This document shows positions 52,727 through 55,931 of a stretch of DNA of 64,000 nt, in pieces. Within the stretch, counting starts at the first letter, position 1. The number at the start of each line of letters is the position of its first letter. The notes beneath the pieces were generated by a model, which saw nothing but the letters and a program-made list of their open reading frames with translations, did no database searches and was not told the origin of the DNA. The stretch comes from Clostridiaceae bacterium (GTDB lineage Bacteria; Bacillota; Clostridia; Acetivibrionales; DTU013). The stretch covers positions 1 through 64,000 of the forward strand of contig JAAYPO010000008.1 in the NCBI GenBank assembly GCA_012519745.1. Direction: 5' to 3'. Both the position numbers and the translations under genes were made by a program.

Positions 52727-53506
52727 TCAGCTTTCTACAATGTTTCCGTCGGTGCTTATGGTAACTACATTCCAGGGAACCATTTTCCCGCTGCTCATCA
52801 TTGCGTTTTTCACAGCGTGGACTATACCACTGCAGCAGGGAACTTCCATGCGCAGCACAGTTATACTCCTGATATCATTATTTGCCAGTATCAGCGCCAG
52901 CTTTTCCGAGTAATCCACATCATCAAGCTTCGGACAGCCTATGATAGTGATCTTGTTTTTCATAAAATCCTTATGGATATCGGCGTAGGCAAAGGCTGTA
53001 CAATCTGCAGCCACCAGCAGGTGAGCGTTGTTGAAATATGGCGCTGCCGGATGTACCAGCTTTATCTGGCATGGCCATTGTCCAAGCTGAGATTCGTTTC
53101 CGGCTGCAGGACCGGTCTCAGCTTTGCTGCTTGCCGTGTCAGCCAGAGCATCAGATGCAGACCGCCTGTTCATAACACGGGCACGTGATCCCGGACAGCC
53201 CATATGCTGACCTGAATGGCCGCCGTTGGAGGGAGCTGTATGGCAATGGCCCCGGGTCAGGGCTTCTCTTTCTTCAATACGCTTTTTTACAGCATCTTCA
53301 TCATATTCTTCCGCTTCTCTTTCGATTATTTCGATAGCACCGGTAGGGCACTCAGGCAGGCAATCCCCCAGACCGTCACAATAGATATCTGATATCAGCT
53401 TTGCCTTTCCGTCCTCCATCGTGAGTGCACCCTCATGACAGGCATTGACACAGAGGCCGCAGCCGTTGCATTTATCCTCATGAATCGTTATTATTTTTCT
53501 CTTCAT
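52727..53506 (-). CDS. 4Fe-4S ferredoxin-domain protein
   Basis: From ATG at 53506 the ~259-residue protein starts with a double-cluster ferredoxin domain (CNGCGLCVNACHEGAL and CDGLGDCLPECPTGAI, residues ~14-55), followed by a His/Cys/Ser-rich linker (about 85-140) and a C-terminal domain (about 145-255) with VAADCTAFAYADIH, IIGCPKLDD and EVPCCSGIV. These proteins are common single genes in anaerobes and probably pass electrons to an unknown partner; the later cysteines may bind another cluster. Confidence 0.85.
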   Translation of the reverse strand: MKRKIITIHEDKCNGCGLCVNACHEGALTMEDGKAKLISDIYCDGLGDCLPECPTGAIEIIEREAEEYDEDAVKKRIEEREALTRGHCHTAPSNGGHSGQHMGCPGSRARVMNRRSASDALADTASSKAETGPAAGNESQLGQWPCQIKLVHPAAPYFNNAHLLVAADCTAFAYADIHKDFMKNKITIIGCPKLDDVDYSEKLALILANNDIRSITVLRMEVPCCSGIVHAVKNAMMSSGKMVPWNVVTISTDGNIVES

Positions 53507-53515
53507 ATTTATCAT

Positions 53516-53776
53516 CCCTTCTTGTCAGCTATTTTCCTTAATCAAATTGTATAATGAAAAACAGTGTGAATCGGTAACCAAGGTTACGAAAACCGTTGTA
53601 CAACAGCCTGTCCGGTTTGATATAATTATGAAATAAAAATTTATTAACCGCATTTTGGCAATATTGCCGGCCTAAATGATATGCTTTGGAGTAATCAGTG
53701 ATTTAATTGCCGTTCGCATATTCGAAAATTTTTCTTTGAACGATGCGTTATAATATGATGAAAGGAAGTGTTGTGT
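53516..53776. other. AT-rich spacer upstream of the DUF1538 gene
   Basis: No gene. It must hold the promoters of the divergent ferredoxin and DUF1538 genes, but I do not see a clear -35/-10 pair. AAAGGAAG at 53761-53768 is the ribosome binding site of the next gene. Confidence 0.4.
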
Positions 53777-55270
53777 TTGAATGTACTCCTTGACAAGTTC
53801 AAAGAAGTTATCTACTCGATTTTGCCCATCACTGTAATAGTGCTTATTCTGAACTTTACATTTGTACCGCTTGGTCTCCCAATGCTGATCAGGTTATTAG
53901 CCGGGGCCTTCATTATAATCATAGGATTAACGATTTTTCTGATGGGAGTAGATCTGGGGGTCACACCGGTCGGTAAGCTGATGGGCTCCTCTCTTGCAAA
54001 ATCCAATAAAGTTTCTATAATCGCGATTGCAGGGCTTTTGCTTGGATTCATTGTATCCATCGCAGAGCCTGATCTGCAGATTCTTGCCGGACAGGTGGAT
54101 GCCGTCACAGCCGGAGTGATATCAAAATGGCTTCTGGTGGTGGTGGTTTCAGCCGGCATAGGTTTACTGCTGGCAACGGGACTGCTGAGGATATTGTTCA
54201 ATATTCCTTTATACAAGACCCTGATGGTATTGTATATCATCATTTTTGTACTTGCCCTGTTTTCATCATCGCCCATATTCCTGGGAATAGCCTTTGACGC
54301 GTCGGGCGCTACTACCGGAGCATTGACGGTGCCTTTTGTGATGGCTCTTGCCCTGGGCATATCGGTCATGAAAAAGGACAGCAAGGCATCGGAAAAGGAC
54401 AGCTTTGGATTGGTAGGCATCGTGTCCGCCGGTGCGATCATAGCAGTGCTCTTTATGAGCACTTTTGTCAGGAAAGGTGAATTATCCGGCATACTTGAGA
54501 AAAGTTCATACCAGACAGATTCGATCCTGGCACCGTTTATGAACAAGCTTCCGGTAGTTGCACTGGAATCGGCTGTAGCGCTGCTCCCTCTGCTGGTCAT
54601 ATTCATCATATTTCAGAAAATATCATTCAAGTTGAAAAAGAGGCACTTTGTGGATGTAATGAAGGGCTTCATATATGCTTTTATCGGGCTGACACTTTTT
54701 CTGACAGGCGTAAATGCAGGATTCATGGATGTGGGAAAGCTTGTCGGCTATAAGATCTCAGCATTTGGCAATGCTCCTCTATTGATCGCCATAGGTTTTG
54801 CTCTTGGGCTTGTTACGATCCTGGCCGAACCGGCCGTGCACGTACTGACTCACCAGATCGAGGATGTTACCAGCGGCTATGTGAACAGGAAGCTTGTAAT
54901 GCTGGCGCTGGCTATCGGGGTAGGAGCCGCAGTGGCACTGTCCATGCTGCGGATCGTTGTGCCGGGTGTAAAGCTGTGGCATTATTTACTGCCAGGGTAC
55001 GTAATTTCTATTATTTTGTCATTTTATACACCAAAGCTGTTTGTCGGTATTGCTTTTGACTCGGGAGGAGTTGCTTCAGGTCCGATGACAGCCACATTTA
55101 TCCTTGCATTTGCGCAGGGTGCGGCTGATGCCGTTACAGGCGCAGATGTATTGGTAGACGGGTTTGGGATGATTGCAATGGTGGCTATGACGCCCCTTAT
55201 TGCACTTCAGACCCTGGGGCTGATCTACAAGACCAGATCTCGCAAAGGAGGTTTGACAAAGGATGGATAA
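53777..55270 (+). CDS. DUF1538 membrane protein (two repeats), transporter-like
   Basis: The ~497-residue protein is an internal duplication: each half (about 1-230 and 260-490) has five or six helices and the same landmarks, LTIFLMGVDLGVTPVGKLMG versus LTLFLTGVNAGFMDVGKLVG, then AEPDLQILAGQVDAVTAG versus AEPAVHVLTHQIEDVTSG, then AFDASGATTGALTVPF versus AFDSGGVASGPMTATF. Inverted-topology repeats and polar motifs in membrane segments are typical of secondary transporters, but no substrate is known for DUF1538. TTG at 53777, eight bases after AAAGGAAG, is the likely start. It overlaps a tandem-PII gene. Confidence 0.85.
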   Translation: MNVLLDKFKEVIYSILPITVIVLILNFTFVPLGLPMLIRLLAGAFIIIIGLTIFLMGVDLGVTPVGKLMGSSLAKSNKVSIIAIAGLLLGFIVSIAEPDLQILAGQVDAVTAGVISKWLLVVVVSAGIGLLLATGLLRILFNIPLYKTLMVLYIIIFVLALFSSSPIFLGIAFDASGATTGALTVPFVMALALGISVMKKDSKASEKDSFGLVGIVSAGAIIAVLFMSTFVRKGELSGILEKSSYQTDSILAPFMNKLPVVALESAVALLPLLVIFIIFQKISFKLKKRHFVDVMKGFIYAFIGLTLFLTGVNAGFMDVGKLVGYKISAFGNAPLLIAIGFALGLVTILAEPAVHVLTHQIEDVTSGYVNRKLVMLALAIGVGAAVALSMLRIVVPGVKLWHYLLPGYVISIILSFYTPKLFVGIAFDSGGVASGPMTATFILAFAQGAADAVTGADVLVDGFGMIAMVAMTPLIALQTLGLIYKTRSRKGGLTKDG

Positions 55271-55931
55271 TGTAAAGAGTATGGATGTTTTGGGGATCGA
55301 ATTGATATGTGTCATTGTTAATTGCGGGCATGGCAGCAAGATACTCAAAGCCGCCAAGCAATACGGAGTACGGGGCGGTACTATCCTGCTGGGAAGGGGC
55401 ACCGTCAAGAGCCGCCTCCTTGAATTCCTCAGTTTATACGACGTGAGGAAGGAGATAGTTTTGATGCTGGCTGAAAAGAATGATGCTTATTATACCCTTC
55501 AAAAGCTGGATGAGGAGATACATTTTGATAAGCCTCACCATGGGATAGCATTCACTATTCCTGTTTACAAAATCATGGGGACAAGTTGCATCGACTGCAG
55601 AATAACCACGGAGGGAGGTACTGATGTTATGTATAAAGCGATTTTTACAATAGTGGAAAAGGGCAGAGCCGAGGATGTGATAGATGCGGCTGCGCAGGCA
55701 GGTTCAAAGGGCGGTACCATTTTGAATGCGAGGGGCTCGGGCATACATGAGACAAGCAAGCTGTTTTCAATGGAGATCGAACCGGAGAAGGAAGTAGTGC
55801 TCATACTGGCTGAAGTGGATGCGACGGAGGCCATCGCAGCTTCTATAAGGGACAGCCTGAAGATAGAGGAACCCGGAAACGGTATCATCTTTATCCAGGA
55901 TGTGAGCAGTGTTTACGGTATATACCGGTGA
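55263..55931 (+). CDS. tandem PII-like regulator
   Basis: The 222-residue protein holds two PII-like (GlnB/GlnK-fold) domains in one chain, about 8-110 and 123-220, with GVRGGTILLGRG and GSKGGTILNARG as the matching nucleotide-loop motifs and VVLILAEV/IVLMLAEK as the strand that follows. A true trimeric PII has 112 residues, so this would form a pseudo-hexamer or three-chain ring with six domains. No uridylylated T-loop tyrosine is apparent. The ATG has AAGGAGG eleven bases upstream and overlaps the DUF1538 gene by 8 bp, so the two proteins probably work together, PII gating the membrane protein in response to a nucleotide. Confidence 0.85.
   Translation: MDNVKSMDVLGIELICVIVNCGHGSKILKAAKQYGVRGGTILLGRGTVKSRLLEFLSLYDVRKEIVLMLAEKNDAYYTLQKLDEEIHFDKPHHGIAFTIPVYKIMGTSCIDCRITTEGGTDVMYKAIFTIVEKGRAEDVIDAAAQAGSKGGTILNARGSGIHETSKLFSMEIEPEKEVVLILAEVDATEAIAASIRDSLKIEEPGNGIIFIQDVSSVYGIYR

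Follow-up and report, generated by a model that had tools for sequence, protein, structure and literature searches.

PII proteins are textbook nitrogen sensors. Their control of transporters appears, according to a review, to be restricted to trimers (PMC10710835), and PII genes have been noted beside NuoL-YbcC operons (PMC5700660). In the DUF1538 family of membrane proteins, UmpAB of Halomonas zhaodongensis has been described as a heterodimer of two 7-span proteins that carries out pH-dependent Na+(Li+,K+)/H+ antiport with K0.5 values of 0.26–0.46 mM. Cloned UmpAB, for which no PII partner is mentioned, showed activity in E. coli (PMC5484666); a PII protein is at least not required for UmpAB activity in E. 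coli. Our literature search revealed no link of DUF1538 with PII and nothing equivalent to a pairing of PII-like proteins with antiporters, but most subscription journals lay outside this search, so that the absence is not proof.

Here, we analyze a gene pair of a Clostridiaceae bacterium in which a DUF1538 membrane protein is encoded together with a PII-like protein. The pair lies in a 64,000-nucleotide stretch of contig JAAYPO010000008.1, the whole of which is referred to below as the window. The DUF1538–PII pairing appears to be undescribed so far, and PII-controlled transporters are a known kind of system.

The pair was compared with described systems. With UmpAB, it shares the DUF1538 family and the construction from two homologous 7-span parts, one UmpA-type and one UmpB-type. 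In contrast to UmpAB, the window protein is one fused chain that scores under the equivalog cut-offs and has a PII partner, whereas the UmpAB paper mentions no PII. As in GlnK-AmtB, a PII gene is located beside a membrane transporter gene, and the window PII-like protein would likewise bind its transporter from the cytosol; however, the transporters are unrelated, and the window PII-like protein is a tandem with a short T-loop that lacks the ATP/2-oxoglutarate residues. SbtB-SbtA is similar in that a dedicated PII-like protein serves one ion-coupled transporter and uses ligands in a non-classical way, but the transporter is a different one, SbtA being a trimer and UmpAB a heterodimer, and the partner in the window is a DUF1538 protein.

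Results

Overlapping genes for a DUF1538 protein and a tandem PII-like protein

The features of the gene pair are listed in Table 1. The membrane protein matches Pfam family PF07556 in two copies (E 7.3e-134; 444 bits against a gathering cut-off of 22.6), and its halves are 30% identical (E 1e-36 in a mutual alignment). The second protein matches PF00543 in two copies (51 bits; cut-off 25), with 31% identity between the two domains (E 1e-12). The initial sequence-only reading had described a membrane protein with two homologous halves, whose reading frame overlaps by 8 bp that of a single chain with two PII-like domains, and all of these observations were confirmed.

The TTG start codon of the DUF1538 gene at 53777 aligns with the ATG of relatives; an alternative in-frame GTG at 53768 is possible, yet it overlaps the GGAAG Shine-Dalgarno-like sequence. 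A scan for promoters and terminators returned sites no more frequently than in shuffled sequences. A gene for a 4Fe-4S ferredoxin-type protein is found nearby (52727–53515), and a similar one is present near another DUF1538–PII locus (L070:947–1672), which may be a matter of chance.

PDB matches to the AlphaFold model of the PII-like protein (pLDDT 83) include GlnK1 and GlnK2 with ATP, so that the protein combines a PII fold with a Pfam score above the gathering cut-off. No match to the PII-like families PstA, CutA or DUF190 was obtained, PF00543 being the only Pfam family reported at E values up to 1. PDB entry 9p1x, considered as a possible DUF1538–PII complex, was rejected: it is a separate PII-family protein with no DUF1538 chain, and its matched stretch retains GDGRIF.

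Table 1 Features of the DUF1538 and PII-like genes (positions in the window)
Feature	Position	Strand	Basis
Shine-Dalgarno-like GGAAG, DUF1538 gene	53764–53768	+	8 nt upstream of TTG 53777
DUF1538 membrane protein, 497 aa, fused UmpA-type and UmpB-type halves	53777–55270	+	PF07556 x2, half tree, AlphaFold
N-terminal UmpA-type half, 7 predicted spans, predicted N-in	53780–54472	+	clade with UmpA-type split genes; K+R bias +8
E97, AEP break of helix 3	54065–54067	+	E in 20/20; helix break in model
D174, FDASGATTG break of helix 6	54296–54298	+	D in 18/20, otherwise E; helix break in model
C-terminal UmpB-type half, predicted opposite orientation and cytosolic C-terminus	54530–55246	+	clade with UmpB-type split genes; K+R bias -3
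E351, equivalent of E97 in C-terminal half	54827–54829	+	E in 21/21
D428, equivalent of D174 in C-terminal half	55058–55060	+	D in 21/21
Shine-Dalgarno AAAGGAGG, PII gene, within end of DUF1538 frame	55244–55251	+	sequence
8-bp overlap of both reading frames	55263–55270	+	TAA ending at 55270, ATG from 55263
Tandem PII-like protein, 222 aa	55263–55931	+	PF00543, 51 bits; AlphaFold pLDDT 83
PII-like domain 1	55284–55583	+	domain alignment, PII tree
PII-like domain 2, better conserved; GGTI..ARGxG, EPEKE, PGxGIxF signatures	55626–55925	+	domain alignment, PII tree

A probable monovalent cation/proton antiporter with halves of predicted opposite orientation

The top NCBIfam matches of the window DUF1538 protein are UmpA and UmpB, the subunits of a Na,Li,K/H+ antiporter. 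The scores indicate homology and fall below the equivalog cut-offs of NF041627 and NF041628 (168.4 of 490 and 151.1 of 500 bits, respectively), so that the transported ion could differ from that of UmpAB. In a tree of DUF1538 halves, built with UmpA/B-type split genes and not with the Halomonas proteins themselves, all N-terminal halves group with the UmpA-type split genes and all C-terminal halves with the UmpB-type, a well supported branch lying between the two; the fused forms group together. The window protein is thus a fusion of the UmpA-UmpB type and, by analogy, probably a monovalent cation/proton antiporter. The earlier assessment that the substrate is unknown was too strong, because antiport by the DUF1538 pair UmpA/UmpB has been published (PMC5484666) and the window protein is a fusion of this type, its own ion being surmised from that kinship. 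In the window and at 26 loci, no riboswitch that could point to the ion was linked to DUF1538 when the gathering threshold was applied, and no other independent link of the window unit to sodium was found.

The AlphaFold model of the DUF1538 protein (pLDDT 88, pTM 0.88, from a 51-row alignment) contains about seven spans per half, two of which are broken in each half. The breaks fall at the AEP (E97 and E351) and FDxSGxxTG (D174 and D428) motifs. A Foldseek comparison of this model with the PDB yielded no significant match (best E 0.03, TM about 0.2) and hence no assignment to a known fold, and a search of the PDB for DUF1538 chains gave none. Because a confident model lacks a significant PDB match, the fold of this protein of about 14 spans may be unsolved so far.

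Residue conservation and charge bias were scored on 41 halves, 20 UmpA-type and 21 UmpB-type. The K+R bias ranges from +3 to +10 in all 20 UmpA-type halves and from -1 to -7 in all 21 UmpB-type halves; the positive charges are located on opposite sets of loops in the two types, in 41 of 41 cases. By the positive-inside rule, the two halves are predicted to be inserted in opposite orientations, with the C-terminus in the cytosol. The rare single-gene form (L070) has a bias of +2, which is near balance, and by the same rule may insert both ways. This single-half protein is possibly a dual-topology relic of the state that preceded the duplication.

DUF1538 genes adjoin PII-like genes across genomes

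PF07556 was found in 44 of 100 relatives, at 48 loci, one of which is cut by a contig end. One or more PII-like genes adjoin DUF1538 in all 47 testable loci, and the two overlap or touch in 29 of 46 cases and are at most 60 bp apart in 44 of 46. The same arrangement was observed in 79 of the 79 testable loci among 80 further loci from named genomes, mostly of Bacillota but also of Spirochaetota, Mobiluncus, a Fervidobacterium bin and a Caldisericia bin, a sample that leans to relatives because these 80 loci are the closest matches. Altogether, adjacent PII-like genes accompany 126 of 126 testable DUF1538 loci, whether split, fused or single. Conversely, a search of 100 genomes with a tandem-PII profile gave strong matches that all neighbor DUF1538 or lie at the end of a contig, apart from one PII-like pair that adjoins a ZIP gene (L191). 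No conserved third partner gene was found around the DUF1538–PII loci. The co-occurrence of the two genes, which the sequence-only reading had proposed as a check, was therefore seen at every testable locus of both samples, in support of its view of a membrane transporter with a PII-type protein as its own partner.

The source genome carries three different DUF1538–PII modules, at 53777–55931 of the window and at L031 and L032 (G000:C49). Two of the three share a contig, at a distance of about 13 kb, and one module has two separate PII genes.

The pairs differ in architecture. Fused DUF1538 genes are accompanied by a tandem PII or by two PII genes; split DUF1538 genes are accompanied by two PII genes or, in Alphaproteobacteria (two plasmid loci, of Methylocystis and Chelativorans, in addition to the 126 above), by one; the single-half DUF1538 gene is accompanied by one single-domain PII gene (L070:4710–5753). 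In a further form, DUF1538 and PII are joined in one chain that is encoded downstream of a separate tandem PII (L037, L122, L129, L132, L133 and L134). The number of PII domains per DUF1538 pair is accordingly one in Alphaproteobacteria, two at most loci and three where a PII domain is also fused to DUF1538. In the PII tree, in which many forks are not resolved, domain 1 clusters with the first of the split genes, and the single form is placed near the base. An ancient duplication common to the split and fused forms agrees with both gene trees.

The earlier suggestion that both partners have duplicated holds for the duplications themselves. A matched design, with one PII domain per membrane half, was rejected on the predicted inversion of the halves, as oppositely inserted halves would not be equivalent partners for two PII domains, and on a PII copy number that varies from 1 to 3.

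Loss of the canonical ligand residues

Thirty first and 30 second PII-like domains were aligned with canonical PII proteins of related genomes and with E. coli GlnB, the numbering of which is used here. Equivalents of D88, K90 and R101 are absent from all 60 domains. The K90 position is occupied by I, V, L or T, and the R101 position is mostly G, including all second domains. Of the 30 second domains, no more than 3 align an Arg to R103, and the first domains have none; Q39 is replaced by H/E/K/R or S/N/K, and the T-loop is shorter than in canonical PII by about 6 residues. The DUF1538-linked domains therefore essentially lack the residues that contact the ATP phosphates (D88, K90, R101, R103) as well as Q39 and the long T-loop with Y51 that serve 2-oxoglutarate. 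The K58 column is uncertain because the MAFFT and HMMER alignments differ by one residue. Domain 2 largely retains the equivalents of T29, G27, G35, G37, G87 and G89, and 28 of 30 second domains have an Arg at the K34 position.

With the canonical ligand residues gone, classical ATP/2-oxoglutarate sensing is unlikely for the DUF1538-linked PII proteins. The notion of a nucleotide-gated system, which PII motifs incapable of binding nucleotide were to refute, is weakened by losses that come close to this situation; a different ligand is quite possible.

A second PII-like family beside CPA2 exchangers

A separate PII-like family, in which GxGIMF replaces GDGKIF, is encoded directly beside CPA2-type Na+/H+ exchangers (PF00999) in 30 of 37 testable loci. 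The survey comprised 39 loci (L196–L202 and L205–L234; 30 of 39 overall), two of them cut by contig ends, and the source genome itself carries one such locus (L206). Other members of this family neighbor ZIP or ClC genes or are found near a FeoB-like gene. In L229, L231 and L232, the PII-like gene is close to genes for a DtxR-like regulator and a FeoB-like protein, with no adjacent antiporter.

The CPA2-linked proteins are the nearest other PII-like proteins to the DUF1538-linked ones, and GxGIMF is common to both. They form a clade of their own, apart from canonical PII and DUF1538-linked PII, in a tree that does not settle the relative closeness of the three. The two pairings are alike in that a cation/proton antiporter has a neighboring PII-like partner in which GxGIMF stands where canonical PII has GDGKIF, but the CPA2 membrane family is unrelated to DUF1538 and its partner usually has one PII domain. 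The fact that PII-like proteins accompany two unrelated families of cation/proton antiporters supports the antiporter reading of DUF1538.

Discussion

In our judgment, the unit in the window probably pairs an UmpAB/DUF1538-type antiporter, which exchanges monovalent cations (Na+/K+) for protons, with a dedicated PII-like regulator in the cytosol. The antiporter would consist of two 7-span halves in opposite orientations, in which the conserved acids E97/D174 and E351/D428 of the broken helices are probably ion or proton sites. Through the overlapping genes, the PII-like protein would be made in step with the antiporter; it would then bind the antiporter from the cytosolic side and switch or tune the antiport rate on a signal. 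Sensing of ATP plus 2-oxoglutarate in the classical manner is improbable, and the candidate effectors are a different nucleotide, an ion and pH. A regulator is favored over an essential subunit because E. coli showed UmpAB activity with a clone for which no PII is mentioned.

A specific form of this explanation, possible but doubtful, is that the PII-like protein senses another adenine nucleotide (AMP, cAMP, ADP or c-di-AMP) through the remaining glycine scaffold and the conserved Arg. The glycines, T29 and the Arg at the K34 position in domain 2 are in line with such binding, as are the altered sites of SbtB and PstA and the action of AMP-bound SbtB on SbtA (PMC10710835). c-di-AMP in particular has been described as a signal of potassium availability in Firmicutes. 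However, DUF1538–PII pairs also occur in Alphaproteobacteria, from which c-di-AMP is generally absent.

Alternatively, the PII-like protein could be a structural subunit required for assembly or stability of the antiporter and not a ligand-operated switch. The near-obligate pairing, the variable copy number and the direct DUF1538–PII fusions would fit this role, but we consider it improbable, given that PII is apparently dispensable for UmpAB in E. coli and that the strong conservation of the ligand-site region of domain 2 suggests sensing. Least probable is a classical nitrogen- and energy-sensing PII that binds ATP/ADP/2-oxoglutarate in the style of GlnK-AmtB and controls a nitrogen or carbon solute transporter: it has the PF00543 membership and the fold matches to ATP-bound GlnK1/GlnK2 in its favor, but a plain nitrogen sensor is rejected on the residue losses and on gene context, as the source genome already has a canonical PII with an intact GDGKIF that is fused to Amt and adjoins a glutamine-synthetase-like gene (L235:2757–4616), and amt/gln genes do not recur around DUF1538 loci.

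In a wider proposal, which we advance tentatively and with somewhat less than even confidence, a branch of PII proteins with a dismantled ATP/2-oxoglutarate site would act as the cytosolic gate of unrelated monovalent cation/proton antiporters (DUF1538, CPA2 and perhaps the ZIP-, ClC- and FeoB-linked loci), and would respond to an ion, to pH or to another nucleotide rather than to nitrogen status.

The constant PII-like partner of a heterodimer-type antiporter would put the trimer-only view of PII control (PMC10710835) to the test. If the proposed regulation holds true, PII control is not limited to trimeric transporters, and many annotations as 'P-II family nitrogen regulator' would be misleading. 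If the PII-like protein gates sodium/proton exchange, salt and pH homeostasis of many anaerobes would run through an unrecognised branch of the PII family.
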